From the NCBI GenBank assembly GCA_963921825.1, contig OY997588.1:85457064-85521063 (forward strand): DNA of 64,000 bases, given 5' to 3'. The notes under the pieces were generated by a model. It searched no databases, was not told the DNA's origin, and saw nothing but the letters and a program-made list of their open reading frames with translations. Positions within the stretch are counted from its first letter, which is position 1, and each line of letters starts with the position of its first letter. The stretch is from Erodium maritimum. Its lineage: Eukaryota > Streptophyta > Magnoliopsida > Geraniales > Geraniaceae. The translations under genes and the position numbers were made by a program. Positions 15,756 to 49,194 of the stretch are shown here, in pieces.

Positions 15756-17665
15756 AATTTGATAAGCGAAAAGTTTTATTAGGCAAACGTTCTACAAGAA
15801 AAGTAAAACGATGCAAGAAAAACAATCCTAAAAGGACCTTTTCCCCAAACCGAATATGCATAAGCAAACTAAAAACAAAAACAGAACAAGGAGCAAACTA
15901 AACAGGGCCCCACCCTCCTTACCTACTTCCTATCTGGATTCAAGCACAGAAATCGGTTAGAAACCGAAACAGGAGTTAAATTTCCTGGATTCACTTCCGG
16001 AATAACCTCAATCTCGCTATCCTCGAAGTACTCCTCAACCTCAACCTGCTGTGGAGATTTAAAACCTGGAGAATTGGCAACAATCTTTTTCACAAATCGC
16101 TTGCTAAAGCTCCACGAACCTTCTTTACTTTGTTTAGCAATATCAATATTGAAACCTCTCTCAGGATCCCCTTTATCAGCCGATGTTTTGGCTCTTGTCT
16201 GGTAAAAAACAGTTGGAGGGGCTGTCTTTTTTGGCTGTCCTTTTTTTGGACGACCACGCTTCTTTGGCACCTCTACGAGAATAATTTCTTTACTCAAAAG
16301 AATGTCTTTCCACAGACTATCTTGTAAAACTTGAGTGTCTGAAACAGAGCCCACGCCGACTATCGGTCTCAGATCAGTGTCAATGCGTTTAAAAACATCA
16401 AAAAAGCTCGGGTCGTTGACCGACTTCTTGGAACCTGAGCCCAGATCAGCATATGAATCCTTGGTGACAACCTGGTCCATCCCACCTTCATGGGCTGCTA
16501 GATCTGATCCAGCAGCATCCATAACGTCTCCACTGTTCAAGCCCAACACAACCGGCCCTGGCTCTCTCACCCCTGACCCACGCTCAAGCCCAACATTCTT
16601 AAGCAGTACCGGCCCAAGCACGGTGTCTTCTTCCCCACTCTTTGCAGAGTCCTGTCGCGCTCACGTCTCTAAAACAGGAAACACTCACGTTTCTCCCAAA
16701 GGAAATCGATTTAAACCATCGGGGATCACGGGAACGGTGATTGCGGGCGTAGATACAGGAAGATCAGAATTTCCGTAACAGGTGATTCTGAAGATACAGA
16801 CGTGATTTTCTGAGGATTCAGAAGTCCAGAAAATCTCTCTCCCTGCGTCGGACTTGCAGACGATGCGCACCCAAGCTCAGGAGCACCGATTTCCGGCGAA
16901 GCTTGTCGGGGAAGATCCGCCCCCACCGTGCCAGAAGTAAAACCCATGATGCCCTGTTCCGCTGATAGTAAAACAGGGGCACGGGCATGCTGATCCAAAA
17001 CTGAATCTGGCCTAGCCATTGCTACCAAGAGGCTATAGCCGTTCAGGTTAAAACCATTGAGCACCTCTATCGCCTGTAAGGCCGACTCTTTGAGTTTAAA
17101 CTCTAAAAAACCAAAATATTGACCCTTACGATTCGGTTTCTTTAGAACCTGAACTGACAGCACTTCACCGAAGACTCCCAATGAGTTCCGTACCCAGTCC
17201 GGTGATGTAGCATAAGGCAGATTGTAAATGAAAACCTTACCTCCTTTATTGTCATCGACCACCGGCAGAGAAGGATTGACAACAGTTCCCTCGTGCATCA
17301 CCTTCTGAGCCTCAATTCCCACATGAAGTTTCGGCTGTGAGCTGAGCAACTCAACCTCATCTTCAATTCTATTCTCTGAAAAAGGCTCTATAGAATCTGG
17401 TACAGCCTGAACCTTGGCCGGGGTCGTTCGAGGCCGTGCTTTCTTGGTCGCAACCTTCTTGGCCGGAACTGTCTTCACCTTTGCCTTTGCGTGTGCCTTG
17501 GTAGAAGACGGAGCAGACACCTCCTCCCCCGCAGAACGAGCCATGATTTGAACATAAGAACCATAGCTAGACACTAATACCGAACAAAAATCTGTGAAGG
17601 AAATTGGCTTCCAACTCTGAGAGAGAACCATTAGTTCTATACTTTGTAAAAAAAATAATAATAAT
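15756..17665 (-). mobile_element. ORF1-only LINE derivative (RRM type) with TSD
   Basis: The element is flanked by AAAATACGTAAAAA near 15741-15754 and AAAATACGCAAAAA at 17666-17679, an imperfect TSD of about 14 bp. It contains one coding region (the ORF1 described separately) followed by only about 165 bp of 3' tail. That tail, read on the minus strand, has GGTTTGGGGAAAAGGTCC and CCTAATAAAACTTTTCGC. The same tail words occur in the element at 41482-42415. There is no ORF2 (endonuclease or reverse transcriptase) between the ORF1 stop and the tail. With TSDs at both ends, the ~1.9-kb unit appears to have moved as it stands. Confidence 0.7.
15923..17544 (-). pseudogene. LINE ORF1 with RRM domain and AT-hook, one frameshift
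   Basis: The ATG at 17542-17544 opens MARSAGEEVSAPSS and a Lys/Pro/Ala-rich basic tail (residues ~14-45). An RRM fold follows at residues ~102-178, with RNP2-like VFIYNLPYA (104-112) and RNP1-like QYFGFLEF (142-149). The frame breaks near 16730 and resumes one frame over. The C-terminal half carries KKRGRPKKGQPKK, an AT-hook-like nucleic-acid binding motif, and ends LCLNPDRK at a stop at 15923-15925. Plant L1-type LINEs have RRM-class ORF1 proteins that coat element RNA; I infer that role here. The ORF is long (about 540 codons) and mostly open, so decay is modest. A host RRM gene is an alternative, but the tail and TSD argue for a retroelement. Confidence 0.65.
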
Positions 17666-18067
17666 AAAATACGCAAAAATTTAATCACTACATTTAAGAA
17701 ATTTGAAATTAAATATGAAATCAAAACAAAATCCATAAAAGAAATCACTACAGAATCCGCGTTTGGAAGTGGATTTGTGGAGGAAGGAAAGGAAAGCCGG
17801 AGACGGGGAAGAACCCGACGAGGACCAAACCAAGCACATAACCCGTACTATAATGCCATGGAATATTGATGTAAAGGACGAAAGGGCAGGGCATTCTGTA
17901 GAGAACCTATAGGTATATTTAGAGCGGAAGCTCTCCACCGTTCTTTGGCGACCATTCTGTAGAGTGTGAGTGGTTTGGTGTGGGCTGAGTGTTAGTATAG
18001 AGAGTTTCAATAGGTTAAATGTGCTTTTATATAAGGGTTTTTTTGGTCATTTTTTAATAATAAAAAA

Positions 18068-18086
18068 TCATGTGCGAAGCACATGA
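18068..18086. other. Short perfect hairpin
   Basis: TCATGTGC, loop GAA, GCACATGA. It lies just inside the right inverted end of the 15147-18170 element. It resembles terminal hairpins of plant transposons, but no Helitron CTRR end follows. Confidence 0.5.
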
Positions 18087-18170
18087 CTATTTTCCATCCA
18101 AAACTAACAGAAAGTTAACGGCTGGGCATGAAAGTGTTGGTAAATATTTGGTTTGGGTATGAAACTGCAA

Positions 18171-18935
18171 CAATGATTTAGATTATAGATATATAGGGAT
18201 GATTAGTAAATTTTATTGGTTTATTGAGCGATATAGAAACGTTTCTAGGATAGGTGTCCGGTTTGGGAAATTTAGCCAAGTGAAGAGTTGTGATAGACGG
18301 GTTGTGTTGTACGGTATCGATCGAGATATTATATGTGTTATTTGAATGTACATTATGGTTGAATATGTCTCTATCGGTCAAATATGTGCGGTATTCAACA
18401 GATGCATCGTAATTAATGATTATATAAGTTTGATTTGATATCTTCTTATTTTTAGGTATAGATGTGATCATGTAATAATAATGAGAGGTTTACATTAAGA
18501 TAGTACATAATGATACGTACTTGTTTTTGTTAAATATGAATAGTGCATTGCACAATGGCATACAACGACAAGTTACACTTTGACCTCAGGGTAGAGCATC
18601 GTTGAGGACGCAGAGGACAAGGTATTGTCCCGAAGAATAGCAAGAACACCCGTTTTCATATGGGGGTTCCACCTGATAGGGGTTCTTCTTCTTATCAACC
18701 TGGTCCATATATCCAGCCTTAGCCTAAGGTCATTTTGCTAATTCCCTTATAGGAGGAAGAAAAAAAAGAAAGAACAAGAGCATGATGTAGTAATAACTGA
18801 ATTGTTCAAGGAGTTTGGACATATAATAGAGGAAGAAAAAAAATGGAATCAGCAAAGAAGAAGAGCAGCAACGGGATGGGGTAATTGCTGGATTATTCAA
18901 GAAGTTGAACAACAAATGGAGAATGATCGACTGTG

Positions 18936-18985
<50 letters not shown>

Positions 18986-19012
18986 GACTTGGAATGACTT
19001 TCTTGTTATGTA
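18171..19012. other. Spacer with a Glu/Lys-rich coding remnant
   Basis: Nothing is recognised from 18171 to about 18540. From about 18750 to 18935 the plus strand reads open as EQEHDVVITELFKEFGHII and on to EVEQQMENDRL before a stop. This looks like the charged C-terminal end of a transposon-associated protein, but I cannot name it. It runs directly into the ATT microsatellite. Confidence 0.3.
18936..18985 (+). repeat. (ATT)n microsatellite
   Basis: About 16 uninterrupted ATT units, followed by ATGACTTGG. Confidence 0.95.
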
Positions 19013-19022
19013 TGACTATTAT

Positions 19023-20354
19023 GAGGAGAAATCTAATAAAAACTCCTCTTATCCTAAAAACTGTGTGAACCAATCCTAGCCATACACTTTTAAGATCCAA
19101 TATTCATCATAATGCCACATCATCACCCCAATTCTAGCCAAAACTAGCACCACTTTCTTCATTTCTTACACAAGCAATGACATAATTGTAATAGCATGGT
19201 GCCATGTGGACAAGTATAGATTTTTTTCTTCAACAATTCACTAATTTAATCATTCCCGCTTTGTTTCAACTCCGATTAGCTTCAAAGTTGCACCAATATT
19301 TTTCTGTTTCCAAGGGTTTTAAATCAAGATCAGTCATGAATATATTTTGAAGCACGAAAATAAAAAAAGTTATATTGAGGTGATAAAAATAATGTTCAAT
19401 GTTGATAAATTTTCACTAATAATTTTTTTATATCGGGGTATCTAACTAGTGCTAAATGTTGATAAAAACCATGTAATGAGGTGATAAAAAACAATAATGA
19501 GGTGATAAAGACGTGTACAAATTTGATAACAAGTGCGATAAAATAGAGTGTGTTGATAAAAAAAACATGTGATAGGGTGATAAAACACATGTAATTTAGT
19601 GATAAACATAGTGTTTAATGTTGATAAAATTAGTGCTTAGTGTTCATAAAAAAACATGTGATGAGGTGATAAAAATCATGTTCGGTTTTGGAAAATGAGG
19701 TGATAAAACTACTATTCAGTGTGATAAAACCAGTGTAAAGTGTTGATAAAAAGTTCCCAGATATAAATTTTTTTAAATCATCCCCGGAATAATTTATTTT
19801 TTTCTTGCTTTAAAACACATTCACCACTGATATTGACAGAAAGCCCTTAAAAAACGAAGATATTAGCAAGTTTGAAGCCAATCGGAGTTTAAACGAAGCA
19901 GAAAAAATTAAATCATGTTTAGTTTTGAAAAATGAGGTATAAACCTAGTGTCCAGAGTTGATAAAACCAGTGTAAAGTGTTGATAAAACCAGTGTAAAGT
20001 GTTGATAAAAATTACCCAGATATAATTTTTTTTAAATCATCCCCAAAGTAATTTTTTTTCGTGCTTCAAAATATATTCATGATTGATCTTGATAGAAATC
20101 CCTTGAAAAAACAAAAATATTGGCGCAAGTTTGAAGCCAATCGGATTTCAAACAAAGCGGAAAAAATTAAATTTGTGAATTGGTAAAAAAAATATAACAG
20201 TTTTACCAAAAAAACCCCTACAACTGACCAAAAAAATGCTGTTTTTTCAGTCAACAACTCAATTGGATCCCATCCATGCATTGTTAAATTGGATGGCTTG
20301 GATTGGTTCACACGGTTTTTACGTTAAGAGGTGGTTTCTATTTGATTTCTTCTC
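19023..20354 (-). mobile_element. Family X Mutator-like non-autonomous element, copy 1
   Basis: The ends are GAGGAGAAATC at 19023 and the inverted GATTTCTTCTC at 20344-20354. The inverted similarity continues about 55 bp through the GTGTGAACCAATCC block. The flanks TGACTATTAT (19013-19022) and TGACTAGTAT (20355-20364) are an imperfect 10-bp TSD, as expected for Mutator-like transposition. The interior has no ORF. It holds repeated TTGATAAAA / GGTGATAAAA motifs (19380-19760, 19930-20010). Compared with the copies at 52887 and 57440 it is inverted and lacks a nested LTR, so it shows the uninterrupted 1.33-kb form. Confidence 0.82.
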
Positions 20355-20765
20355 TGACTAGTATTATGACTTGTACAATGACTTTATTATGTATGTATGA
20401 GTTTATTGTTGTAGTTTTTATTTGTGTGGTCCCTCGCGATTAAGAATTTGGGTACTTAGTTCATGTCTGTAGTTGGGGGTCAATGTCGTCTTACATTTAT
20501 GGTCTATCGATATCCAAGATATATTTGAGCCTTTATCAGCGGGTATTGTAAAGGATCTGACCGTTGCAGTGTAGAAAGGGACAAGTGTATATCGATGGGT
20601 ATATTTTGTGTATCGATCGAGAAATAGAGTGTTTTGTGTTGTCTTTAATGGCAAGCTTTTATGTTGGGATTTCTGTCTATCACACACACACACTAACTGG
20701 ACCGGAGGGATGGATGGAGGAGAATAAATTCCTTCTCACCTACCTAGATACACTACACACTACGC

Positions 20766-20840
20766 TACACTACACTACACTACACTACACTACACTACAC
20801 TACACTACACTACACTACACTACACTACACTACACTACAC
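20766..20840 (+). repeat. (CTACA)n microsatellite
   Basis: About 15 pure pentamers follow two imperfect ones. The ORF that crosses it (LHYTTLHYTT repeats) is an artefact. Confidence 0.95.
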
Positions 20841-22121: not shown

Positions 22122-25100
22122 TGTAATAACCACTCCCGGTCAACGCCAGTCAAATCTGCGAAAAACAGGAAAATTTAAATATTTTCAGCAGACACTTGAT
22201 TGAACCTAAATTTGACCCTGAGGGTCATACCGGACTTAAATTGACCCCGATATCGACCAAAGTGAGTTCCGGGGGACTCAGGGCAACTTTCTGATCAATT
22301 TGGGAAATGTTGACTTTTCACTGGAAAAGTCAACCGAGCGACGTTTTGGTCCATTCGAGGACCGTTTTGGGTCCAAAAAGCTTAGCCGTCGTCGCAGCGG
22401 TCTTAGTTGAGCCGTTTCCTTGTAGCCCGTCAAGTTTCGTAATTTCTTGGAAAAAGTGCCCGTTCGGGGCCCGAAACATCTGAATTTCGCGAATCTGATT
22501 GGAAAATATCTAGTAGATAGTTTTCAAAAATGTGTGGGACCCACCTTGCCACCTGTCAAACAAGTGGTGGTGTTAGGTTTTGGGACAAGACAAGACAAGA
22601 CTTTGATGGTTAGTTTTGCTTTTTAAAGTGTTATTTTTTTTAATAAAACAAAAGGGAAATAAGATGATACACGTCCATTTCAAAAAAAGAAGAAGAAAAG
22701 GGTAGGTTTTAGAGAGAGAAAATGAGTTAGGAGAAAAGGAGAGAAAAGAGAAGAGGCTTGGGGAATTTGTGACGTTTCTCGATCATCCGACCGGTGGATC
22801 GTCTCAACGATAGAAGAATCGAGTTCGCACCGTCATTCTCTACGGTGAGCACCTAACCGATTTTCGTTTTCGAAAGTTCTAATTTTAGGTTTTGAGTTTA
22901 AACGATTCAAATATGGTTGGGTTTTGTTTAAGTTTGGTTTAAAGATGATTGGTTGAGGTTTGGAGTTCGTTAGGAACGTTTTGGGGCGAAAAGGGAATTT
23001 TTCCCATTGTGGCCATGTGGGGCCCACGTGCCCGGGTATCAGGTTTTTGTGTTCGGGTGGTTTAGAACGTTCCCTGGATCATTAATCCACAACCGGATCG
23101 AAATTTGGAATTAAATTGCAAAAGTTGCATTTATCGGGTTTAGAAACTTTAAACGCTAATTAATTGACTCGGAAGTCGGAATTCGATTCCGTCGAGTGCC
23201 TTGGGACCCTTGAATTATTCTAAGACCGTATAAACGAAAACGGGAATTTTTGGAGCCCCGGAAGGGCATTTACAAAACCCGGGCAGATTCGCCATGTCGG
23301 GCAAATCGGGCCTTTTCGGGTCCAATATCGACAATGTCGAGTAATTGGAGAGTTTGGGAGTGATCGACATTGTTGGGGTTACTTTTGGGCGTCAGGTTTA
23401 TTAAAATTCAGCATTATGCCTGCAAGCTTAAAAGCGTTTAAAATTGTGTTCTTTTAGATCGTGCTGCGGACCGGGGCCAAGGAAAGCTAGGCGAGTGACG
23501 GAGATCACGCCGGGGCTTATTTGGGCACTTTTGGAGAACATGCACGAGGTAGGGAAAAGTAGCCGGATTTCGGCCCTGACTAGGGAAAGTTAACAGTAGA
23601 AATGCATGTGACACTGGGTTGTCGTGGGTTAAGTGAGTTATCGAATATTAGAAAGGCATGATACGGGAACGTAGCGAATATTGGAAATGCATGTGACACT
23701 TAGTAGTGTCGTAGGAGCAGAGAACTTAGCGATATTGGAATTACTGGAGGCATATGACCATGCCTGGAGGTTGATTGTGAACTTATCGGTACTAGGAGTA
23801 CTGGAGGCATATGACCTTGCCCGGAGGTTGATTGTTTAATTTATGTCTTGGGTGGCCATGAGAGCCCGTGTATTATTGTTGGTGTCTTGGGTGGCCATGA
23901 GAGCCCGTACTTTACTGTTGTGTCTTGGGTGGCCATGAGTGCCCGTGGGGTTGTCGAACCCGTGTCTTTATTTTTGGTGTGCCTTGGGAGGCCATGAGTG
24001 CCCGTGGGGTTGTTGAACCCGTATTGTTACTGTCGATGTATCTTGGGTGGCCATGAGTGCCCGTGGGGTTGTTGAGCCCGTGAGTTATGGTTGTTGTGTC
24101 TTGGGAGGCCGTGAGTGCCCGTGGGGTTGTTGAGCCCTTGAGTTATGGTTGGTGTGTCTTGGGAGGCCATGACTGCCCGTGGGGTTGTTGAGCCCGTGAG
24201 TTATGGTTGGTGTGTCTTGGGAGGCCGTGCGTGCCTGTGGGGTTGTTGAGCCCGTGAGTTACTGTTGGTGTGTCTTTGGTGGCCATGAGTGCTCGTGGGG
24301 TTGTTGAGCCCGTGAGTTACTATTGGTGTGTCTTGGGTGGCCATGAGTGCCCGTGGGGTTGTTGAGCCCCTGAGTTATGGTGGGTGTGTCTTGGGAGGCC
24401 GTGAGTGCCCGTGGGGTTGTTGAGTCCGTGTTTTACTATTGGTGTCTTGGGTGGCCATGAGTGCATGTGGAGTGCTGAACCTGTGTTGTTGCTGCTTGTT
24501 GAACTTTGCTTGTGATTGTGATTGTGCTTGCCCGAGGTTAGTGACCCGACTGTGTGTCGGGAAGTGGTGTGGACTTTGGCTGGCTTACCTGACAGGGATC
24601 GGTAAGTTTCGAGCGTTCTTTGGTTGGCCTGACCGAGTTCGAGTCTCGAGAGGTTGCGAGCGTTCTTTGGCTGGCTTGACCGAGTTCGAGTCTCGGGAAG
24701 TTGCGAGCGTTCTTTGGCTATCCTGACCGAGTTCGAGTCTCGGGAGGTTGTGAGAGTGTTTAGGCAATGAGAGGGCAGCTCCCCTTCCGACTAGCTATCG
24801 GAAAAGCAGCGCTGTATATATCGCCAACAGGTCGACCGCCTGGAGCCTGACAGGGATCGGCAAAGCGCGTGGGGCAGGCTCGAGCCCAGCCGGTTAGCAA
24901 CCGGCACTGAGCAGCTGACAGGAGTGCGATCCTTTGTGATCTTGTTTAGTGTGCGATCCTTTGTGATCTTGGGTGTTGCGTGGTGGTCTGTCGTGTCTTT
25001 GGAGGAGGTCGTCAATCGTTGTGTCGGGTCTACCTTACGTGTCCGAGTGTTGAGTCGGCTGAGGAAAGTATCAGTGTGTGGGTGTCGATCGGGTTACTTG

Positions 25101-29068: not shown

Positions 29069-29069
29069 G

Positions 29070-35300: not shown

Positions 35301-36139
35301 GGATTTTACGTTGATCTATTGACATGCATAAACCTAAGGGTCACACCGGAGGATGAAACTAATTGACACATTTATGGAGAATGGCCAAAAGGGAGTTGTC
35401 TCGGGACATGACCAAAACTGGGGTTTGGGTCATGTGCCTGTAACTGAATAGGACTTTACGGATCGAGACAAGGCTTAGAGTCTTGGGATTGATCGCGTAG
35501 GATAATGTTGGACATTTCTGGTATGGAAGGCTTGGAGGAGATGAGCGAATCACGGGACCTCGTTGGAAATGGCGACGGGCATGTTCCAAGAGGCCCATGA
35601 AAGGCCCATGGAACTAATTAATCAAGTCTTGATTAATTAGTAATAAGTAAGCAAGACAAGGATTAAGGTGTTGGTGATTCACCACCTAACCCAATCTTGT
35701 GTTGCCATACTTTGTCCTATTTACACCTTACTTGTCACCATGCTTGTCCCATGCCTTTAGTTGGACAAGTATGAGTTTTGTTATGGTTAAGTCATCTTTT
35801 TTCAACATAACAAACACAAGACAAGAATAGGAAACACAACTTCTCTCTCCCTTCCCTTGCAATTTCGGGTTTGGCAAGCTCCCACCTCCATTTTTGTGTT
35901 CTTGATTCCTCAAAGAGAAGAACTACGTGGCTTTGATTCCCATGTGGATACGTAGGCGTCTTGGAGACTCAAGCCAATCATTCGTTACCCGGTGTTCTTG
36001 TTTTGGTAAGAATTAGTGTTGAATTTTTCTCTTGTGAATCCATTCTTTGTTAGTTGTTTCATGGTTTAATCGTCTCTTGGTTTTCATTGATTTTCCGCTG
36101 CGAGTTGGTTCATCTCGGATCCTACCTCGAGACCCAACA
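32347..36139 (+). repeat. 3' LTR of the copia element, interrupted and partly deleted
   Basis: The first ~284 bp (32347-32630) match the LTR start. Family A gypsy sequence follows (32631 to about 34985), then the LTR resumes at GGATTTATCCCTC and runs to CCCAACA at 36139. Compared with 27546-29068, about 270 bp of LTR around the junction are missing. Confidence 0.9.
32631..34985 (+). mobile_element. Truncated gypsy-type LTR, family A, in the copia 3' LTR
   Basis: It starts TGTAAGAACCACTCCCG at 32631 and follows the solo LTR at 22122 closely until CTAGCTATCGGAAAAG near 34965. It then stops and joins copia LTR sequence at about 34981-34988. The 3' ~0.5 kb of the LTR (the block with CTGCTTTTCCTACAGG and GGGGCGTGACA) is absent. 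One deletion therefore removed its end together with adjoining copia LTR. A 42-bp minisatellite (GATCGGTAAAGTTGAGCATT) lies at about 34795-34925. Confidence 0.9.
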
Positions 36140-37447
36140 TAGACACCCACAAAAAATGGGCCCAAGGAAACGAGCCATTAGATAACACTACCAAATTTCG
36201 ATACGCCCCCACCACCGTGATTCCTTCTTTTGCTGCCACCCACACCACCCCATCATCACGGCTAGCTTCGACATGTACGTCCAGTAGTTCATCAATTAGA
36301 TCCCACAATTTATCCTCCTCCCAAGGCCTCAAGTTCCTCCTAAACTCTATAAACTAGCCCTCCTCGTCCCAAAATTCTCCAACCTTCCCTGACTTGAGCA
36401 CAACTAAGGAGAAAAGCCTAGGATAGCGATACCTTAATGCTCCTTCTCCCAACCAAACATCATGCTAGAAGGAGATCTTGTCACAAGCCCTCAACCTCCA
36501 TTCCATTCCTTGGTCTCCAAACAAACTCCTAAGTAGGGGCTCAAAACACAAAGCCAAAATATGCCAATAACACTGTATTTCCATTCCAATAAACTTTAGA
36601 TAGATCCCAATGTCTAATGTATCACCCCATTTTAGCACATATGACCTGTTTCCACAAAGTGTCCCCCTCCAATGAGAACCGTCCCCACCATTTCGCTAAT
36701 AAGTTGTTGTTTATCTCCTCTAGCCTCCTTATACCGAGACCCCCTTCTTCCTTCGGCCTAGTCACGATGTACCAATTTATTTTACAAGACACCCGACCCT
36801 CACTTGTATTCCTCCATAGAAACTTACGCTACCAGCGATCCATCTCCTTAATCACCCCATTTGGCGCTTTATGCAAGGTCATGAAAAAAAGGGCAAACAA
36901 CTTAAGGAAGATATAATCAACACAATCCTACCACCCAAAGATAGATACCTCGCCTGCCACAATGCCAATAAATATTTGAACTTCTTCAAAACCGGTTCCC
37001 ACATAGTTTTTAACCTTGGATTAACCCCAATATTAAAGCCTAAATACGACATTGGCAAAGAACCTGCCGAGCATCCCAAGGTAGCCACCACCTCCTCTTG
37101 AGACATATGGTCCGCATTAAGAAGAACCACTCTAGATTTAGAGAAATTAATCTTTAGCCCCGAGCATAACTGAAAAGAAAACAAATTCCTCTGTAAGGCC
37201 TCAAGTTCTTCCCTCTTCGCCTTTACAAAAAATAAGTGTCATCAGCGAACTACAAGTAAGAAATCACTGACCCTGACTCTCCCACCTTCATCCATCTGAA
37301 TTCTCCAATTCTAACCCCTGCGTCCACTGTTTGATGCAAACCTTCTGATGCTAGTAAGAAAAAGAAAGGGATATAAAGGACATCTCTAATGCAATCCATT
37401 AGCAATTGCAAAGTCTATTGTGGGTGAGCCACAAAAAAGAATTGATA
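36140..37447 (-). pseudogene. LINE-1 block 2: reverse transcriptase end and following region
   Basis: The minus strand shows PFLFLLASEGLHQTVDAGV, the catalytic FADD at 37249-37238, then SGLKINFSKSRVVLLNAD, LPMSYLGFNIG, and LSLGGRIVLI (36879-37184). Beyond this the sequence matches the less conserved ORF2 stretch before the zinc finger (KLWDLIDELLDVHVE at about 36270-36320). Stops and frame changes are frequent. Confidence 0.85.
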
Positions 37448-40021
37448 TGTAAGAACCGCCTTCGGTCGATCCCGGTCGAATCGGAGGTTTTCGGCGAAAG
37501 TTGACTTTTTGCCAGAAAAGTCAACTGATGACTCCGGGAGTCATTCAAGACCTTTCCGGGGCCCAAAAAGCTTAGCAGTTGTTACGGTTAGCTTAGTTGG
37601 GACGTTTCCTTTTCGAGGACTGTAATATTGGGAAAAGTCAACCCGGAGTCTTTTCGGTTAAACTGCAATTCGGTTAGATACTAAATCCGATAAATTAATA
37701 GAGCTGGAATTAATTAAGCTTGGAGTGGTCCCCACATGGACATGTGTCCATACTTTCTTGGAAGGGAAGAAGTGGTTGTGTTTTGACCTTCTTACCCTTG
37801 GTTGTTAGAATTGAGGAGGTAAGAGAAAAATGGCTTTTTGGAACTTTCATAATTGGGTTAAAAGCACAAAAATGAGAAGAAATCAGCTCATTTGAGCATT
37901 GTTGGCTGAATTTTCAGAGAGAGAAAAGCCTAGAACCTTGAGGAGGAAGAAAGGAGGAAAATGAGAGATTTTAGGCTTGGTTTCTACTCAAATCCCTTAA
38001 AAAACAATAGATTCTTCTTCTACGCTCCATTTCCAAGGTAATCATCTAACTCTTTTTCGTTTTTGGTGAATTGTGGTTCATGGGTTTGAGGGGAAATGAA
38101 GAACATGGTTGAGGTTTGAAGCTTTAATGGTGGATGTTGAATTTTGAAGAAGAAAATGAGTTAGATGATTGGTTTTATTTGGGATTTGAGTAGTTTTGAT
38201 GAAACCCTTAGTGGGTATTGAATTGCTGAAGCTTTGGGTTATGTTTTGGAGTTTTGAGGATTCATCAATGGTGTTTTGTGGTTGATTTTCGTGGAAAACG
38301 AATTGGGGAGGAAGAAGGGAGTCTGCTCTGGTCTGGCACGGAACGTGCTGGATTCCAGCACGGAACGCCGCCCGGAACGGGCTAGGTTCTAGCACGGAAC
38401 TCGACATAGAACGGGCTTTGTCCCGACACGGCACGCCGCACGGACCGTGTCTGGTTCCGGGCAGGTGCGCTGCGCGGACCGTGCCTGGTTCCGGGCCGGT
38501 CTGTGACACGCGCCGGGTCTGGTTCCAGGCCGGTCATTGGCACGGGTCGGTTCGGGTACCGGGTCGGCACGCTGCACGGGCCGGGTCGAATTCCGGGCCA
38601 ATGGGCCATCTGAGTTGGGCCTCGTTTTGGCACTTTTCGTTTTAGCCTATGTTGGACGTCAGCAGCTAGGAGTTGATCGTTGTTTATTTCTGAGGTAGGG
38701 ATCGTAGCGAATACCGGTTCGATTGTGGAAAGTTACTAGTATGCATGCATGTTAATAATAATAACCGGAAAGGTCCTAGTTCGCATATAGGATGTGATTC
38801 AATAGAATAACCGCTTTCAATTACATTAATAACCGAACGAGTCTTAGTGTGCATGTAGGATGTGATTCACTAGAATAATTGCTTTCAATTCTTGGGAAAT
38901 TGCCGTGCTGGTAGAATGGCCATGTCGAGCCTTAGGTTGTTTGTTGATTGAAATGCCTGATCTTTGATTGAGATGCATGATGTGTGACTAAGTGTCGATA
39001 AGATTAAGAATCATGTTATGAGATACTCGGTGTAGCATGTTGTGGCTATGTGTGGGCGAGTGTGCCGTGTTTGATGTGATGTGAATCCTTGGTTGTGATA
39101 TGATCGGGTGAGTGATAGACCGACTTGTGTGTTATGGTGAGTTGGCTCGGTTGGTATACCGTGGTCGAACTATGGCTTTGTGATGCGTGTTATTCTCCTG
39201 TTGTGTGTTCCAAAAGGAGGTGGGTTCGGCATGATACCTACACTGAGAGAGTATGCCGGTGTAGAGTATCGATGACGAGGACGGTTTAACCATTACCCCG
39301 ATGCTATGTGGTCCGGGATGGCGTACGACTGAGGTATGTGCCGGTCTGATATGCGTGAGGCCCCGAGTCTGTGTGCCGGGAAGACGTCCGACTGAGGGAT
39401 TTCCGGACTGGGATGTTACCCCGATTCTACGTGACGGGAAGATGTTGGGACCGATGTTTCGTGTTCAGGTACGATATAAATGGGACAGGATGTGATAGCT
39501 GGAGATGTTTGGAATAGTTGTACTAAGTTATGTGTTGTTCTGCTGTGTGTGTTGTGCATGTTGATTGGCTTTCTGCGTTGTCTTATTTGTGTTTTTGATC
39601 TTACGAGGGTGGTTGGTATTTGTTCCGTGGGCGTTGTTGATAGCTATGCCTTACTAGTATGCCCTAATTGGACGGTTACTCGTGGTATTGAACTGATGTT
39701 CATAACCTTAACTACTTTTCCTACTGAGCGAAAGCTCACCCCTTACCTTGTTGTGTTTCAGGTCTTGAGTGGGATTTGTACTAGCTGGATGCTCGATGCT
39801 TGGGAGCTAACGAGGGTCCTAGGCTAGCTTGTCTAGAGACGTACTGTGTTTTTTTTTTGAATTAAACTTTAACACTGGATTTATGAGCTGTTGACTCTTT
39901 TATCGGTTTATGGTTACAATTTATTATTACTTTAAACTTTATTTCCTTTAAAACTGCTTTACTTATTATTCCTTTAAGTTCACGTCTCGAGTCCGGTCAG
40001 AACCAGATTTGGGGCGTGACA
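37448..40021 (+). mobile_element. Solo LTR, gypsy-type subfamily C, in LINE-1
   Basis: It starts TGTAAGAACCGCC at 37448 and ends TTGGGGCGTGACA at 40021. It shares the terminal motifs and some U3 words with family A (GACTTTTTGCCAGAAAAGTC, CCAAAAAGCTTAGC), but most of its body differs. The reverse-transcriptase reading of LINE-1 continues on both sides. The neighbouring pentamers TGATA and GTTAA do not match, so the TSD is lost or the flank has changed. A degenerate GC-rich repeat of about 50-60 bp (CGTGTCTGGTTCCGGGC) lies at 38330-38600 and creates the spurious ORFs there. Confidence 0.85.
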
Positions 40022-40173
40022 GTTAAATAAGCACGAAAACAAAATTGCATCTACCTCCTCTATTTCGACCCAAAATTCATCACAATCATTATTGAATCTA
40101 AGTAATCCCAATTCAGTTTATCATACGCTTTTTCAAAATCCAATTTTAACACCACTACCTCCTCCTTCTTGTT
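40022..40173 (-). pseudogene. LINE-1 block 1: reverse transcriptase motif
   Basis: The minus strand reads KKEEVVVLKLDFEKAYDKLN and then WDYLDSIMIVMNFGSK, the conserved KxDFEKAYD motif with its following helix. Two stops occur within 45 codons. The homology ends at about 40173, where CACTA-related sequence begins. Confidence 0.85.
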
Positions 40174-41481
40174 AGATTAGAATTGTGTTTAGATTTGTTA
40201 GTGTATTGTTAATTTGTAAAGTTTAAATTTGTTAGGTTAGAATTCTATTTAGATTTGTTAGGTTAGAATTGTGTTTAAATTGATAACTGTTAATTTTGGT
40301 TATTTATAGTGTTAATATTATGTTCATTTCTGTTTTTATATATTTCTATGAATAATGATGTTGGTTTTAAATTGCAGTATGCCGCTAAGAAAGAGAATTA
40401 AAATGCGAGACCTCGCCCCTGCCACTACCCCGCCTGCTACCCCCGCCCTCGCCTCCGCCCCTGCCCAAGGGAAGGGGATTGCAGATACCTCCCAAACCAG
40501 CTCCCCTCAAACAACCTGACCGACGATGGTTGCTTTGGTTTTCCTGTCAACGGATCCTACATTACAAGGAGGGCCTAGTTTGGGAGTGGCATCGAGCTCT
40601 ATTGTTGCGGACTCGTTTGGTACGTCCTAAAGGCAGCGAAAAAGAGGCGGCCTACTAAACCTACTCCACCTATGGAAATCATCTATGACATTGAGATCGG
40701 TAGCGAGAGCGGGAGCAACAACGGGTCCTCCTATGAGGAAGAAAGTTAGGGCGTTGACGCTACTCTCAAGAGTGAAGTTTTTGACGCCTCTCTCGAGAGT
40801 GAGACCATTGAATCGTCGAACGCCCCTGCTAAAAAGAAGAGGGTGGGAAAATGGATTCGTGTCGACCGCCTGGACATAGAAGGAGGTGGAGAAAAACAAG
40901 AAAAAGTATCGCCTCGTTTATGACCCCACAAGAACGAATATTTACTACCTGGACCATTCGAAAATCGAGGGCCAAAGAGCGACCCGAAATATCATATCTT
41001 TCATCCGGGTGTACTTGCCAATATTGGCCCCCACGTGGGATGAGACTAAAGTAGATGAGCGACATAAATTGCAAAGGAAGCTTAAGGTAATTATTTTTCT
41101 ATGTAAGAATTGTTTATTTTGGTATTTAAATTGTGGCTTTATTAATTTCTCATCATTTTGTTTTGTAGTGTCTGTACCATTACAGACATGAAGATGATTA
41201 TGTTTGCAAGTGGATCCATTCCGAGTGTCGAAGTCGGTTCAAGGATTGGAAGTCCAAGATCACCGTTACCCGCAAAGCTAGAATCGAGGCAAAGGAGACC
41301 CCGTTGATCTCCACTCCGCATGAGTTATAGTGTCGTGAGGAAGAGTTGAAGTGGCTTTGCGCCCACTTCGATTCTGATGAGTTCAAGGTAAATAATCTTC
41401 GTAAATCAATTTTTAGTTACAATTTTCTAAGTAATAAATTAATTAGTATTTTTTTGTAAAAATAGCAGGCCAAGTTCGATC

Positions 41482-42415
41482 GGGCATCGCGATCACCGAA
41501 AGTGTGTCGTTGCTTCTATAGCGATGAAGATACAAAACAGAGCATGGGTGGACACACGCGTTTGATGATTGGCGATGATCTAGTTGTTTAATCTGATGTC
41601 CCATCACCGACTACTTCCTCCGGTGAGCTATTCAGGAATGAATTGGAGGATCATTTGGATTCGGAAATTGAATCGGCAAATCGCGATCCCGATTTGATCG
41701 GAGAATGGGATGTGGTTGGTTGTGAGGATCAGGTCAATCAGGCCTTGATTCTCGCTTCAGAACGCATGACTGCTAAGTTGGTTGTGACTTTGAAGAGAGA
41801 CGAAGCCAACTGGAAAAGTTTGTTGGTGGGGGATGGGTTGCTTTCTTTTCAAGCAACTCACCCTATCCAATTCCTTGACCCGGTCCAGGTTTTAGACCTG
41901 GTCCAGATTTATGACCCGATTCAGGTTGATCAGGTTCAAGTTTTTATGATGGGATCTCCTCTGGGCAAGGTGTCAACCCTTGACCCGATTATGGAAAATC
42001 TGTCTCAGGTGGTTCATTTTGTGGGCCACGACTCAGTTCAGGGGACAAATACGTCAGATCATTTACAGATTAGTCCTTGGAAGTACGCTCTTCTTAAGCC
42101 TGGTCTTAAGGGTCGTCCTCCGAAGAAGCAGACTGTTCCTCGGTTCAGCTCTACTTATCTTCATTTTATCAGGTCTAAGTTGCATGGTACTAAAGCCGTT
42201 TCGTCTTTTGGGACCGATGCGTGGGCTCAACTTCGTGAAATGACGGCCAAGAAAGGTGGTTACTAGCAAATTTTTTGGTTTAGGAAAAGGCTTGGTCCTT
42301 TTACCTCCCCTTTATGGAGCTCCTGTGTAATATTGAACTGGTCTTTGACCATTTTAGAGTCTTTCCTGCTTGGAAAGTGCCTATTTTATTAATAAATTTT
42401 CGAGCTTATAAAAAA
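41482..42415 (+). mobile_element. 5'-truncated ORF1-only LINE derivative in a CACTA exon (10-bp TSD)
   Basis: AAGTTCGATC occurs at 41472-41481 and 42416-42425, and an A-run precedes the second copy. Removing the insertion rejoins the CACTA exon in frame. The insert has one ORF followed by only ~145 bp of tail containing GGTTTAGGAAAAGGC, AATAAATTTTCGAGC and TTATAAAAAAA. The tail matches that of the RRM-type element at 15756-17665. There is no ORF2, so this is a second ORF1-only copy of the same kind. Confidence 0.75.
41643..42266 (+). pseudogene. C-terminal part of a LINE ORF1 with AT-hook-like motif
   Basis: An open frame of 207 codons starts MEDHLDSEIESANRDPDLIG and ends LREMTAKKGGY. The same frame extends upstream to the insertion border with a single stop, so the Met is probably internal to a longer ORF1 cut at its 5' end. 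The basic stretch KGRPPKKQTVPR resembles the GRPKK motif of the 15923-17544 ORF1. No RRM is present because the N-terminal half is absent. Confidence 0.55.
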
Positions 42416-42999
42416 AAGTTCGATCAGGTAGCAGAAGCCAAGAAAAATGTGACGACTACGCACCGAGCCGGGTCTTGCTCGATAAAAGGTCACGCCAAGG
42501 AGATCGTAAAAAAGGACCCCTCCAAAAGGCGACGCTCCTGGAAGCCTCTAAGAAAGCGTTCCCTCCAAACGACAAGAAGAAGGTCAACCGCAAAAAAAAG
42601 GGTAAGTGCATTTTATTCCAATAACACCAAGACGTTTATTTTTCATTTCCATCATTTTTCTAATTTATGCTTTGTTTCTGCTCCCCGGAAGATCATTACT
42701 GCAATCCAGGAAGTCCGACGATCGCTCGACGTCTCTTCATCCGTTCCGGACTTGGTTCAGGTTGAGGCACTAGTTGCCAAGTTAAACATATAGACGAAGG
42801 GAAGCGTGTAGAGTCATCCTCCCAATGCGGAAGAAAATTGCGTCTTCCTCGATCGTCGCTTCCTTTGAAGTCTCTTATGAAATGGAAAATAGAGTGCCTG
42901 TGTGAACCGATGAGAGAGTGAAGGAGGAGGTGGAGAAACAATTAAGGTAATAGAAGGAACAATTGGACTTAGCCAAAACGAATTCTGCTCTCCTGCGAC

Positions 43000-43475: not shown

Positions 43476-43480
43476 TCAAA

Positions 43481-44263: not shown

Positions 44264-44282
44264 CACGGTTTGGATGCTCTAA
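44264..44282 (-). repeat. Harbinger-type terminal inverted repeat with TAA target
   Basis: GAGCATCCAAACCG, read on the minus strand and ending at 44279, is followed on the plus strand by TAA. It fits a PIF/Harbinger terminus (GAGCATC...) with a TWA target site. The matching left end was probably removed with the rest of the element at the CACTA border. Confidence 0.5.
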
Positions 44283-44359
44283 TATAAATATTCTTCCCTA
44301 AGAATTTTATTTCGCTTCCTTCAAATGTTTTTTTCAGCACAAATTATTTTACGAAAGAA

Positions 44360-44940
44360 ATGGAGAAAATTGTATTTATAAATATGAAAATAACATGCGG
44401 GTATCTGAGAATGGCCATTAGTCAATTGTGTTATGGTATTTCAAGCGCTGACATGGACGAGTATTTGAGAATGGTCGAAAGCACGGGTCTTGAGTGCTAT
44501 AAGTATTTTTGCAAGGCGGTAATTACCATATTTGGCCAGACCTATCTACGAAATCCTACACATGACGATATGAATCACATAGTAGCAGTGAATGTTGGGC
44601 GTAGACTCCCCGGGATGTTGGGTAGTCTTGACTAGATGCATTAGGAATGGAAGAACTATCTGACGACATTGAAAGGATCTCATTCGAGGAGGAATCACGG
44701 TAACAAACCGACAGTGGTCTTTGAGGTCGTTGTCACGCGAGCCTTATGGATTTGCACATGTTTTTTGGGATGACAAGTTTGAACAACGGCCTAACTGTGC
44801 TTAACCATTCAAGGTTGTTCTCGTACGTTGTGACCAGTTTTTATGAAAACAATCCCGTTGACACAATAATCTTGCAGAAAGGAAGGGGAACGAGCATTTG
44901 GGGTCCTTCGAGTTCGGTCTCACATTATCACTAGCCCGAA
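44360..44940 (+). pseudogene. HARBI1-like transposase fragment (DDE part), opposite strand
   Basis: The plus strand reads DMDEYLRMVESTGLECYKYF, GQTYLRNPTHDDMNHI and PGMLGSLD, a stop, then MH-stop-EWKNY and CFFGMTSLNNGLTVLNHS. These are the middle blocks of HARBI1, including the first catalytic Asp (GSLD). The second catalytic Asp in the SLND context is Asn here. It starts at about the residue where the minus-strand fragment stops, but in the other orientation. It is dead: two stops, a lost catalytic residue, and no N-terminus. Confidence 0.8.
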
Positions 44941-45483
44941 TCAAATGTGAAATCCCTCGTCCCTTGGCCTAGTCATGAATACATGTTTTATCATGAACAA
45001 TCTGATTCTCGAGGCAAGACGTCATGCGTATGATAATTATATTGAACAAATAGATCAAACAAACCTACATTCATGCAGAGAAGATTTGTCCCCGCCCATG
45101 TCATACTAGCAAATAACAAAATGATCCACAAGCAACATGCTCATCATACACTAAAAGTAGACCTCATCGAGCACATTTTTGACTATTGAAAATAAAATTG
45201 ATTCAACCAAGTTAAAGCAACATGCTCATCATGCACTAATATATTAGACTGAAAATAAAATTGATTCAACCAAGTTAAAAAAACAAGAGAAACAATTTTA
45301 TTCTTATATTTTTTCATTCAGCTTCAGCCATACTAAATGACTGCAGATGCTCCAAAGGTATCGGTTTCGATCCGTAACATAAAGCTTTAAGCCCAAAAAT
45401 TTAAGAAGTTGCGAATTTTATTTTGCTTCACCCAAATGTTTTTTTCAACGCTAACAAATTATTTTACGACAAAAATCGAGAGT
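44941..45483. other. Spacer downstream of the P450 pseudogene
   Basis: AT-rich sequence with a near-duplicated phrase at about 45186 and 45250 (AAATAAAATTGATTCAACC). I see no gene. It probably includes the 3' UTR of the P450 on the minus strand. Confidence 0.4.
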
Positions 45484-47030
45484 TTATAAATCTGAAAATA
45501 ACATACGGTTTCTCACACATATATCATAATTTAGTGATACGTAGTTGCAATCCATGTCCAGCTTAAAAGCTGGTGAGTGTATGTAAGCCGGCGAGGGGGA
45601 GAAACAAAACTTGGAGAGAAGGAGAGATAGAATGACCTTCAGCTCGGTCATGGCAAAATGTTGTCCTAAACAGGTGTGAGAGCCAGCCCCGAACGGATGT
45701 AAGCTTGCGGAGACTTGCAAGCTCCAAGAATGCCATTGGCGGATTGAACCACAGATGAGTGTCTTGCTGTATCATGAATACCGGGATTTGGATGTTCATT
45801 CCTTTAGGAACTTTGATGCCTTTGAACTCCATTTCTTTGCGCGTTTCTCTACTCACAAATCCCGCCGGCGGGTAAAGCCGCAGCGTCTCTTGAATCACCA
45901 TCGTCAACTGCATCAAATACAAATTTAAGTATGAATGATACGCATATAAGTTTATCAATCTCAACTATAGGCGTAATAACTTACTACTTTCATGTTCCGC
46001 AGCATAACAGCGTCGGGAGCTGCGCCGCCACATACTTGTAGTACCTCTGCCCGCGCACGATCTTGCCATTCTGGATACTTGGCTAGCAGCATCAAGCACC
46101 ATGACGCCGCGGTCGCGGTGGTCTCATGGCCTGCAAAGTAGACGTTCTTGCAATTATCGACTATGAACTTGTCGCGACCCATTGGCATGTCTTTGCTCGC
46201 ACCGCAGCTTTGAGCTCCCTCCAGTATCATCTGTAGGAGGTCTCTCTCATCACGTGACGCTTCAACGCGTTGTTTTACCACGTTTAGTATCATGGAGTCG
46301 ATGTCTTTGTGCAGTTTCCATATCTGTCTGTTAATCTTGGTCGGTACATATCTGTAACATGACATGTGACCATTATTGTCAAAGTGTAAGTGATCTTCAT
46401 TCAAGATTGTTCAAGTAAATAGTTACCTTGAGCCGGGGACACCGATCTGGCCCTTGGACATGAAGTTTAGAAGTTGTCCGAGTTTAATGAATATTTCTTG
46501 TCCCTTTAAGTAACTGCTTCCGAAACAAGCCCTTGAAATGACATCCCCCGATAAGCTTTTCAAATCCTCGTCTATTCTTATTTCTGCTGAAACTCCCTCA
46601 CTCTCCACCATACTCTCCCATTTTCTTACGACCGAGGCCGTTGAGTCTATCATTAGCTTCAACATACCCTACAAAAACGAAAAATCCAACCTTGTCAAAG
46701 ACACCACAAACGACAAACAAGAAGTGAATGAGGCATATATTATATACCTTGATCTTGTCCATGTAAAACTCAGGAGCAATGATATTCCTTTGATGGGCCC
46801 AAATGGGACCACTGGAGGAAAGAATGCCCTGACCCAATAGAGGCCCACGGTCCTTAGAGAGGTAAGAAGGCTTCCCCAGAGACAAGTATGAGCTGAGGCA
46901 GACTTGCTTCACCATCTCTACTTCTGTTGTGTATAGTAGTTGTATGCTTCCGGTTGAATACACAAATGTGGGACCTGCCACGTCATTGGAATGTTTCCAT
47001 CCTTTTCATTTCACGCATAATTAAAAGCAT

Positions 47031-47116
47031 ATATTATATTATATTATATTATATTATATTATATTATATTATATTATATTATATTATATTATATTATATT
47101 ATATTATATTATATTA
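47031..47116 (+). repeat. (ATATT)n microsatellite in P450 intron 1
   Basis: About 17 pure pentamers. It directly precedes the ORF1-only LINE, whose far end (49182-49200) again carries TTATA units, so it was either the target or a copy of the element's own tail. Confidence 0.95.
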
Positions 47117-49194
47117 AAACAAAAAATCAACCAAAAACTACCTCTTCGCCTCTGTCGAGACCTCTAAACCCTAATCATGTGCTTCCGTATCTCTGCGTAT
47201 TACGCCGACCAAATGGCGCGCGTTGCTTTTCCACAGGCGTCTCCTCCCACGGTTGCTCTACCCTCGCCGCCTCGGGTCATGTCCGATCAGCCACTGGCGT
47301 GGGCGCGGCTCCGGGGGCTCTTGTCTCATTAGTCGCTGGCGTGGGACCAGGACCAGCGGCCACCCATCCTCTTTGCCCGTCGCATGAGATCATACGACCT
47401 AAGCGGGCACCTCGGAAGAAGAAGGCCTCTGCATTGCAATCGGGTCCACCCCAAGAATTGTCGCCCCCAGCTTTGGATCCCCTATTGAGGCTGACTCTAG
47501 GAGCCTATGCACAGGGGGATCATCCTCCGTCGTCAAAGTCGTCTCAGGCGCGGCGGTGTCGGCCCACGAAAATGGCATCTCCTTCACCGATCCCTCCGTT
47601 GTCGCCTAGGGTTGTGGAGGCTCATCGGCTGCAGGTTGCGGACGGGTTGTGGCCAACGCATGGTAAAGCTCCTGGTAGTCCTACCGATCAAATCCCGCCT
47701 ATCCCCCGGCCTCGGTTCCTTCAAATAGGGCAACTCTCGATGATCGCGCCGGCCGAGGATATCGTCCTCCATCCGCCTCTCTTTGATCCTCGTCCCCCAT
47801 CTTCCCCTAGATCATGGAGACTCGCTTCAAGCCCTTCAACACAGTTCTCATACTGCTCCTTAGGGTTTGAGGAACCCTTGGAGGTTACGGTTATGAATGG
47901 GGTGCTGGACCCGACTGCGCTCTCCCGCCAACAATATGGGATGGTGGGTCGGTTGCTCACAGATTGTCAGCCCCGAAAGGATACTCTTCTCCGTATCCTC
48001 ACAAATGCATGAGGAAAATATGCTATTGGGTTGGTCATTAAGGACGTCTCCCGTGGAGTGTTTGGGTTCTGCTACTTCGCCAGGAAGGAGAACCAGGATT
48101 GGGTTCGGCTGCACGAAACGTGGTGCTTCGATGGCAAGCCCTTGATGCTGGCAGAGACGGATCCGTTCGTCCAAGACCTACCAGCCATAGATAAGATGCA
48201 ACTGTGGGTTCATGCCCATGGTATACCGCATATAGTTAGCACCAGGACTACAAGTACCATGATAGGTGAGGCACTGTGCGGAACGGTGGATGTTCCTTAT
48301 GATGAATTCGGTCAGTGATGGGGTGGGACGGTGAAGGTCCGCTACTGGAAATCCCTTAACCGACCCCTGTGCAGGAACATGCGTCTCAGATTCCCTGAGT
48401 TCCAGGACCTGATCACCCGCTCTCTTACCTATGTTAAGCTGCCGGGCTTCTGTGGGAATTGTGGATGTATAGGGCATCCACCTACGACCTGCGATAAGGA
48501 CATGCTGGGCATTCATACTTTTGACAAGTCCTTAAAGCACTATCAGAAGGATCAGAGGGAGAAGGGATATGCCACGACTTGGACGCAGGCTCCTAGGGTG
48601 CCTCCAGGCTTTGCTCCACTGATACGCCAGCCCACTCCTCCGCCCGTTGCACCTAGGGGGTGAGCGGACACTTGGTGGAGATGGAGAGGGTCGTCATCGG
48701 GAGGATCTTCGGGAGCCTCGTGGGCAGGAACACATGAGGAACCTACAGTGGTTCCAGGAATGAAGAGGGACTCGGCGGGCGAGCCTCGTGAAAATCAGGC
48801 GCGGGCTGGGAAACAGCCCCGCCAGACGCCATGAGTCGTGTGGCGGGGCTCGGGGGAAGTTGGGTACTCCCCCTGAGGTCACCCTGTCCTTACCCCGATA
48901 CTGGAGGGCATATGATCGGTTTTATATCAACTAACAAGTGTCACCTTTGGGTGGCACAACGACTTTTAGGCCCTAGCTTGAGCGGTGCCTGCCAATATTT
49001 TACTAGTTTAATGGTTTTGGTTTTGATGTTATATCTAGTTTGGATTTATGTTTTATCTAGCCTTTATGGATCCCCTATTCAATGCGTCCTGGACGTAATA
49101 ATAGCTATAGGATCAATGTGTTTGTCCCGACATGACCCCCAAACATGTATTGATTCTAGTTAATGGAATGAAAGCAACAGTTATATTATATTAT
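47117..49194 (+). mobile_element. ORF1-only LINE derivative (DUF4283-CCHC type) in P450 intron 1
   Basis: The element lies between the (ATATT)n tract and TTATATTATATTATATTATA. It has a leader with CCTCTAAACCCTAATC, a long ORF1, and then 360 bp of tail ending TTAATGGAATGAAAGCAACAG, in the style of plant L1 tails. There is no endonuclease, reverse transcriptase or zf-RVT sequence. The TSD cannot be separated from the microsatellite. It is antisense to the P450. Confidence 0.7.
47119..48834 (+). pseudogene. LINE ORF1: DUF4283 domain and CCHC zinc knuckle, three TGA stops
   Basis: A single frame of about 572 codons is open from 47119 to the TGA at 48832-48834, except for TGA at 48010, 48316 and 48661. 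The N-terminal ~250 codons are proline-rich and basic. DUF4283-like sequence follows at 47869-48170 (GVFGFCYFARKENQDWVRLH; WCFDGKPLMLAE), then LWVHAHGIPH. The zinc knuckle FCGNCGCIGHPPTTCD lies at 48451-48492 with all four ligands. The last part is proline-rich. All three internal stops are one transition from CGA, so methyl-CpG decay of an otherwise intact ORF is likely. In plant LINEs this type of ORF1 binds element RNA; a gag-like role is inferred. Confidence 0.75.

Follow-up and report, generated by a model that had tools for sequence, protein, structure and literature searches.

Three families of ORF1-only, LINE-tailed retroposons in a plant genome

Three units without ORF2 in one window

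Do plant retroposons that carry an open reading frame (ORF) of the ORF1 type and the 3′ tail of a long interspersed nuclear element (LINE), with no ORF2, exist as families, or are they chance deletions? The question is raised by a 64-kb stretch of plant-type DNA from Erodium maritimum (C1:85457064-85521063, within a 763-Mb assembly; hereafter the window), in which a first-pass annotation had claimed three such units. All three were present at the places claimed, ORF2 was absent between ORF1 and tail in each of them, and the distance from the ORF stop to the element end, announced as 145-360 bp, measured about 168, 149 and 340 bp in elements 1, 2 and 3, respectively. Genome searches revealed that each element belongs to a multi-copy family with a single junction between ORF and tail. 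What may be new here is the presence in a plant of ORF1-only, LINE-tailed retroposons, in three separate families; the principle, that of mammalian HAL1, is known. The features of the three elements are given below (R1 is the covariance model of LINE tails described further on; TSD, target-site duplication; UTR, untranslated region; aa, amino acids).

15755-17665, minus strand: element 1, an ORF1-only retroposon bounded by TSDs, with its 5′ end at 17665 and its 3′ end at 15755
15741-15754, no strand: TSD of element 1 on the side of its 3′ end, 14 bases
17666-17679, no strand: TSD of element 1 on the side of its 5′ end, 14 bases
15923-17631, minus strand: ORF1 of element 1, about 569 codons, with one frameshift between 16729 and 16660 and the stop at 15923-15925
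17029-17235, minus strand: RRM of element 1 (Pfam RRM_1, 49.5 bits, E 3.9e-13)
16230-16267 (position approximate), minus strand: AT-hook-like basic stretch KKRGRPKKGQPKK of element 1, taken from the translation, with no Pfam hit
15761-15836, minus strand: two-hairpin 3′ tail of element 1 (R1 21.5 bits, E 0.0041; fold z -2.75, equalled by 0 of 200 shuffles)
41485-42415, plus strand: element 2, probably a 5′-truncated copy of a second family of ORF plus tail, with a TSD matching at 12 of 13 bases
41472-41484, no strand: left TSD of element 2, 13 bases
42416-42428, no strand: right TSD of element 2, 13 bases
41592-42266, plus strand: C-terminal part of the element 2 ORF, 224 aa, with an AT-hook-like GRPPKK and no Pfam domain
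42330-42410, plus strand: two-hairpin 3′ tail of element 2 (R1 25.2 bits, E 0.00039; fold z -1.99, equalled by 6 of 200 shuffles)
47117-49174 (left edge approximate), plus strand: element 3, a DUF4283-CCHC ORF plus tail, inside an (ATATT)n array
48034-48288, plus strand: DUF4283 region of element 3 (Pfam 23.8 bits, cut-off 27.2)
48361-48498, plus strand: zinc knuckle zf-CCHC_4 of element 3 (Pfam 26.5 bits, cut-off 27)
48832-48834, plus strand: family stop codon of element 3 (...KQPRQTP*), with a matching in-frame stop in the relative L107
48960-49174, plus strand: 3′ UTR and tail of element 3, without an R1 match (fold z -0.93 for 49060-49174)

Two of the three elements had been credited with readable TSDs, and these were confirmed. 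In element 1 the duplicates AAAATACGTAAAAA and AAAATACGCAAAAA are identical at 13 of 14 bases, a match equalled by 2 of 3000 pairs of stretches drawn at random from the window; in element 2, AAGTTCGATCGGG and AAGTTCGATCAGG are identical at 12 of 13, as are 3 of 3000 random window pairs. The TSD of element 3 was unreadable because the element is flanked by (ATATT)n arrays. The near-full-length copies L005, L012 and L013 were colinear with a 2.25-kb element 1 query, and both halves of the frameshifted element 1 ORF align across the 549-aa open frame of copy L012. The ORF of element 3 is broken in frame, and that of its relative L107 is open through to the corresponding stop.

Domain content proved to be less uniform than the first-pass annotation had it. 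An RRM/AT-hook protein had been assigned to two elements: element 1 does have the RRM, together with the AT-hook-like basic stretch, but element 2 has no RRM, its ORF giving no Pfam match at E up to 1, and carries only the AT-hook-like GRPPKK. The DUF4283-CCHC pair claimed for one element was detected in element 3, in LINE-type order, although both domains score just below the Pfam cut-offs. Elements 1 and 2, which had been said to share tail words, gave no DNA match in a self-comparison of the window (E 1e-5, at least 60 bases) and represent separate families; they have in common the layout of the tail and a weak protein similarity between element 2 and the family-1 C-terminus (hhalign E 1.6e-4, probability 50%), on which the two may be kin.

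The ORF-to-tail junction across copies

The junction was followed through the genome with long queries, for which only the 40 best candidates were scored; tail-only queries were also used, because lists obtained with long queries favour contiguous copies. With a 945-bp family-1 query, the 40 best of 1958 loose candidates ran unbroken from ORF1 into the tail, 39 of these 40 places ending no more than 4 bases from the query end and one at base 927. In the family-1 tail-only search (1087 candidates), the best 40 were listed, and sequence was fetched for 30 loci. The end of ORF1 lay directly upstream of the tail in 30 of the 30. Tblastn placed the C-terminal part of ORF1 just upstream in 27 of them, reaching residue 545 or beyond, of 549, in 26 and residue 527 in L037, and the remaining three (L042, L053 and L054) retain the final ORF1 codons. 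No ORF2 was found between ORF1 and tail in any of the 30 fetched loci, and the ORF2 pieces that flank L037 and L059 are separate LINEs. In L014, the tail of one family-1 copy is separated off by another family-1 copy.

Exact words were counted genome-wide as well. A 23-base word of the family-1 tail occurs 196 times, against 0 for its reversed control, and AAGTAG, the Lys-stop end of ORF1, lies 112-142 bases upstream in 135 of the 196 (within the fetched loci, in 17 of 18). A 22-base word of the ORF1 end occurs 110 times, and 67 of these occurrences are followed at the set distance by a 9-base tail word. Among the 100 listed ORF1-end words, the exact tail word links 62, places of the long-query and tail searches link 8 more (one of the 8 being the interrupted copy in L014), and 1 further has the tail word at 107 bp. 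Inspection of two unlinked tail words showed that one is ORF1-linked with an altered stop and that the other is a tail fragment without either ORF.

The other two families gave comparable junctions. For family 2, the 40 best of 489 candidates all crossed the ORF end (base 782) into the tail and reached at least base 912 of 931, and 27 of the best 40 places of the tail-only search coincided with places of the ORF query. For family 3, 32 of the best 40 of 523 candidates were places at least 840 bases long; 35 of these 40 scored places reached at least base 835 of 857, three ended at 737 and two at 785-786. The family 3 tail-only search shared 23 of its best 40 places with the ORF query, and in the two of the 17 others that were inspected (L107 and L108) the upstream sequence was that of element 3, with no ORF2, extending in L107 into the ORF end. 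These results support the conclusion that the ORF2-less form characterises entire families, each with its one junction. The first-pass view that this form is no single chance deletion is upheld by the recurrence of the same junction across the multi-copy families 1, 2 and 3; in the copies that could be read, neither an intervening ORF2 nor a junction that varied within a family was seen.

Loci L001-L030, of which L001 is the query itself, share one 3′ end at query base 2241-2243. A run of A follows the tail end in 27 of these 30 loci and begins one base later in L014 and L028; in L001, the copy from the window, the run consists of T. An automated search returned exact TSDs of 9-14 bases in six loci (L004, L007, L012, L019, L023 and L030), unequalled in 50 null draws each, and in L004 the TSD abuts the truncated 5′ end; no exact TSD that beat the null was found in the other 24 of the 30. 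Poly(A), TSDs on some copies and 5′ truncation are marks of target-primed reverse transcription. Locus L059 (C2:65453459 region) holds a family-1 copy inside the 3′ UTR of an ORF2-bearing RRM-type LINE, its likely helper; the copy is flanked on both sides by AACTTGGTGTGA, a 12-base duplication read by eye.

The two-hairpin tail, candidate helpers and the origin of the ORF

Searches with zf-RVT yielded thousands of LINE ORF2 candidates in the genome. Among the RRM-type LINEs, L073 has an 878-residue ORF1 (RRM plus DUF4283) and a 1239-residue ORF2 (endonuclease, reverse transcriptase and zf-RVT), and L075 has the same domain order with a broken ORF1 whose RRM is visible in translation. Twenty pieces downstream of LINEs were fetched, and 17 had usable tails, L079, L083 and L095 being without a recognisable one; 16 tails were aligned, with L084 excluded since its first hairpin is seemingly deleted. 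The tails of RRM-type LINEs consist of two hairpins, an AATAA-like stretch, GCTGAT(C) and poly(A). Paired cells made up 95.4% of the structure, and 9 of its 17 pairs were changed on both sides. None of 500 shuffles matched the paired share, the two-sided changes or the covariation score, 1 of 500 matched the count of pair types, and slid controls were 43-53% paired.

Model R1, a covariance model built from those 16 LINE tails alone, was run over the whole window with no filters; its E-values are rough because the calibration was short. Three matches stood above noise, at 52255-52329 (35.2 bits), at 42330-42410 in element 2 and at 15836-15761 on the minus strand in element 1, and the next match scored 11.7 bits. 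Held-out LINEs (L059, L070, L071, L073 and L075) scored 55.6-85.5 bits, and all 30 family-1 tail loci, window copy included, matched in place at 11.8-28.5 bits, with E at most 0.01 in 14 of the 30. The likeness of elements 1 and 2 to the LINE tails is one of layout and a short terminal motif, without overall sequence identity. The model supports an identification of the tail of elements 1 and 2 with the structured tail of autonomous RRM-type LINEs in the same genome, and points to the RRM-type LINEs L073 and L075 as likely helpers of both elements. RNase-H-type LINEs (L061-L068) show a short terminal similarity by eye and were considered as helpers of elements 1 and 2; they were rejected, the two that were scored (L061 and L067) having no R1 match.

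Element 3 and its relatives L096-L098 gave no convincing match to R1. The 3′ ends of these relatives consist of CTC or CTA followed by poly(A), and L099 stops short of the element end. By eye, the element 3 family and the RNase-H-type LINEs both end in CTC plus poly(A), which hints at a common tail.

Several further R1 matches and tails were noted. The best match in the window, 52255-52329, is the tail of a fourth LINE-tailed retroposon (50999-52335, plus strand, edges approximate), which has no own-strand ORF above 107 aa and possibly a short duplication, AGAAGTATT, on both sides, as judged by eye. R1 matches also lie in the flanks of family-1 copies, at 513-588 (plus strand, 31.1 bits) in L034 and at 505-570 (plus strand, 22.9 bits) in L033, and an additional one of 20.0 bits lies in L005. 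In L090:128-235 (minus strand), a family-2-like tail (TTCTTCC-TCCTT-GGAAGAA hairpin) is found about 500 bp downstream of the end of an RRM-type LINE.

With regard to the origin of the ORF, the family-1 RRM scored 41.7 bits against the ORF1 RRM of L073 (blastp match of the RRM to LINE ORF1, E 2e-15) and 36.3 bits against the best single-RRM PDB chain (60 best of 111 sequences listed); multi-RRM PDB chains scored higher, up to 102 bits. The family-1 ORF is without the DUF4283 region present in the ORF1 of L073 and L075. Descent of the element-1 ORF from LINE ORF1 beyond the RRM was considered on a by-eye C-terminal alignment (KKRGRPKKGQPKK...TRAKT with SKKPQ...TRSKKGK) and rejected, hhalign finding no match between the family-1 and LINE ORF1 C-termini (E 0.43). 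For the earlier designation as LINE-type ORF1, element 1 thus offers a match in the RRM only; the rest of the ORF has no significant similarity to the LINE ORF1. Because the RRM alone matches and host RRMs score nearly as high, derivation from a LINE ORF1 is unproven for elements 1 and 2. By analogy, these two elements would work like half-LINEs.

Selection on family 1 and the spread of the families

A tree of 24 copies splits family 1 into several subfamilies. Over the whole ORF, the ratio of nonsynonymous to synonymous divergence (dN/dS) in 136 pairs from the 17 best-covered copies had a median of 0.51, with 134 of the pairs within 0.33-0.75 and two outlying pairs, at 0.78 and 0.85, both from one close group. 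The ratio dropped as dS rose (r -0.65), which is expected where dead copies drift but the lineage is selected. For the RRM (residues 96-180 of L012) dN/dS was 0.20-0.32 in five group comparisons, dS being saturated in the other four, and between subfamilies it was about 0.2 with dS above 1.4. Third positions accounted for 0.410 of the changes on internal branches and 0.376 on terminal branches, compared to 0.333 under neutrality. These substitution patterns support selection on the RRM as a protein in the element-1 family, a conclusion that holds for family 1 only. Residues 441-549 of the L012 frame showed a dS of 0.19-0.47 in every comparison, compared to values from 0.73 to saturation for residues 1-180; this low 3′ divergence suggests exchange or homogenisation of 3′ parts among the subfamilies.

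The explanation that we consider probable is that the elements form long-lived families of non-autonomous retroposons, each encoding one nucleic-acid-binding protein of the ORF1 type but no reverse transcriptase, and that families 1 and 2 were mobilised through recognition of their RRM-type LINE tail. Because elements 1 and 2 share a folded tail with complete LINEs, their spread probably relied on the borrowed copying enzyme of the latter. The element RNA would be translated, the protein would coat its own RNA (cis preference), the ORF2 protein of an RRM-type LINE would recognise the hairpin tail, and a copy, often 5′-truncated, would be inserted by target-primed reverse transcription started at the poly(A). 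Family 3 may have followed the same general route, but its tail differs and its helper would be another one, perhaps a DUF4283-type LINE. A HAL1-like plant lineage that borrows reverse transcriptase had been proposed from the window sequence; the ORF2-less families, the LINE tail shared by elements 1 and 2 and the selection on the RRM agree with it, but element 3, without that tail, falls outside. If an ORF1-only lineage is under protein selection, the encoded protein should help its own RNA despite the borrowed enzyme. Such elements would therefore offer a handle on the role that ORF1p plays for LINEs in plants, on cis preference and on the stringency with which the hairpin tail is recognised.

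We hold only tentatively a more specific version, in which a single LINE clade would be parasitised by several old, protein-coding lineages; their own RRM/AT-hook protein would come from a different RRM gene and not from the ORF1 of the LINE, and the elements would have become fitted to the two-hairpin tail. These lineages would have persisted through a selected RNA-binding domain and swapped 3′ parts, gag and reverse transcriptase being supplied by separate elements.

Several observations weigh against mobilisation of ORF1-only families through the LINE tail. A link to ORF1 was not demonstrated for 61 of the 196 exact tail words, nor a link to the tail for 29 of the 100 listed ORF1-end words, and the match lists of the long queries carry the bias toward contiguous copies stated above. 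Among the tail loci fetched and the words inspected, no ORF2-bearing element has the tail sequence of element 1; the RRM-type LINEs share the tail layout of elements 1 and 2. The LINE-tail structure was written from the same sequences that were used for counting. With R1, scores are as low as 12-15 bits in several family-1 copies, close to noise and for the weakest within it; R1 matches (12.4-23.7 bits) were obtained for four of six family-2 relatives, L101 and L102 giving none. Pairs changed on both sides number 0 in the family-1 hairpins, whose stems are nearly invariant and therefore add no covariation, and 1 of 5 in the seven family-2 tails. The unmatched C-terminus of the family-1 protein and the modest size of the third-position excess belong here too. 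Finally, an unbroken ORF was found in 0 of the 10 family-1 copies translated (L012 is open over 549 codons up to the stop but is frame-broken near the N-terminus), and nearest neighbours among 30 family-1 copies are 86.6-95.9% identical over at least 500 bases, which makes present activity doubtful. The families seem to be old and are possibly extinct.

An explanation that we consider unlikely, although it survives best among the alternatives, is that the elements are recurrent by-products of a rare parent LINE with this ORF1, this tail and an ORF2, generated by repeated splicing or internal deletion at one point, in which case the selection would belong to the parent. It is favoured by the words left without a link, and the groups with distant residues 1-180 and closer residues 441-549 could reflect a common source. 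Nevertheless, ORF2 stood between ORF1 and tail in none of the 30 tail loci, the flanking pieces at L037 and L059 being separate LINEs, and both RRM-type LINEs inspected have different ORF1s and tails that are only distantly similar. It is still less probable that we are dealing with retrogenes, that is, processed copies of host mRNA for an RRM/AT-hook protein moved by LINE machinery without a special tail. Scores of up to 36.3 bits with single-RRM host chains, near the 41.7 bits of the LINE ORF1, would suit such an origin, as would the AATAAA-like word in the tail and the C-terminus unmatched in LINE ORF1; the 196 exact tail words, the several subfamilies with saturated dS and the selection of the tail from 64 kb by a model built on LINE tails alone argue against it, and the 40 places scored with the 3′ part, a list that favours contiguous copies, include no intron-split match. 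Independent internal deletions of ordinary LINEs, copy by copy, would be compatible with the sequence of any single copy but are highly improbable given one and the same junction throughout families with dozens of copies.

For ORF1-only families spreading with borrowed enzyme, HAL1 (half-L1) of mammals is, by analogy, the closest known parallel, although it derives from the ORF1 of L1, which is not known to be related to the ORFs described here. HAL1 is linked to LINEs and is not autonomous; its only product is an RNA-binding protein of the ORF1 type, and it presumably takes reverse transcriptase from elsewhere (PMC5753468, PMC4161310). The present elements likewise have an ORF1-type gene only and no reverse transcriptase; they differ in that they carry an RRM or DUF4283-CCHC, in the two-hairpin tail of families 1 and 2, and in an ORF that may not descend from the ORF1 of the partner. 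The genome also carries LINEs with an ORF1 of the BNR type (L073 and L075, which by domain content may belong to the BNR clade), a type reportedly described by Heitkam and Schmidt in 2009 (cited in PMC3747384 and PMC9033089). BNR-type L1 LINEs of plants have an RRM in ORF1. Element 1 shares the RRM with them and elements 1 and 2 the tail layout, whereas the elements are without ORF2 and the element-1 ORF is without the DUF4283 region.

Short interspersed nuclear elements (SINEs) are short and non-coding, a class that family 1, with its selected ORF of about 550 aa, does not fit; ARAGORN found no tRNA gene in the elements. SINEs of maize and sorghum share with LINE1-1_ZM a stringent 3′ hairpin with compensatory stem changes, as reported by Ohshima (PMC3747384). 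In those pairs, as here, an L1-clade LINE and an element that is not autonomous have a structured 3′ end in common, but the elements described here are protein-coding and, in family 1, selected. In zebrafish LINEs, the cognate ORF2 protein requires the stem-loop of the tail (PMC4176376). That requirement and the hairpin pairs of grasses make tail recognition by an ORF2 protein plausible for plants. TR-GAG of plants and HeT-A of Drosophila also retain a gag-like gene and borrow reverse transcriptase; they differ from our elements in being, respectively, long terminal repeat elements and a telomeric element of another clade. Searches of open-licence full texts, with subscription papers and Repbase outside their scope, found no plant ORF1-only LINE family, and the families may be undescribed.

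The window contains other features besides these retroposons. Remnants of ORF2 that match the ORF2 proteins of RRM-type LINEs lie at 36117-37457 and 40018-40167, both on the minus strand, and a remnant of an RNase-H-type LINE ORF2 lies at 62704-63997 (minus strand). A cytochrome P450 gene or its remnant (45566-47005, minus strand), of which the piece 45961-46407 scores 70.9 bits, adjoins element 3 and its (ATATT)n array. At 24862-24943 (plus strand) ARAGORN calls a tRNA-Ala (AGC), partly within a repeat with further copies near 1162-1728 and 6800-7365.

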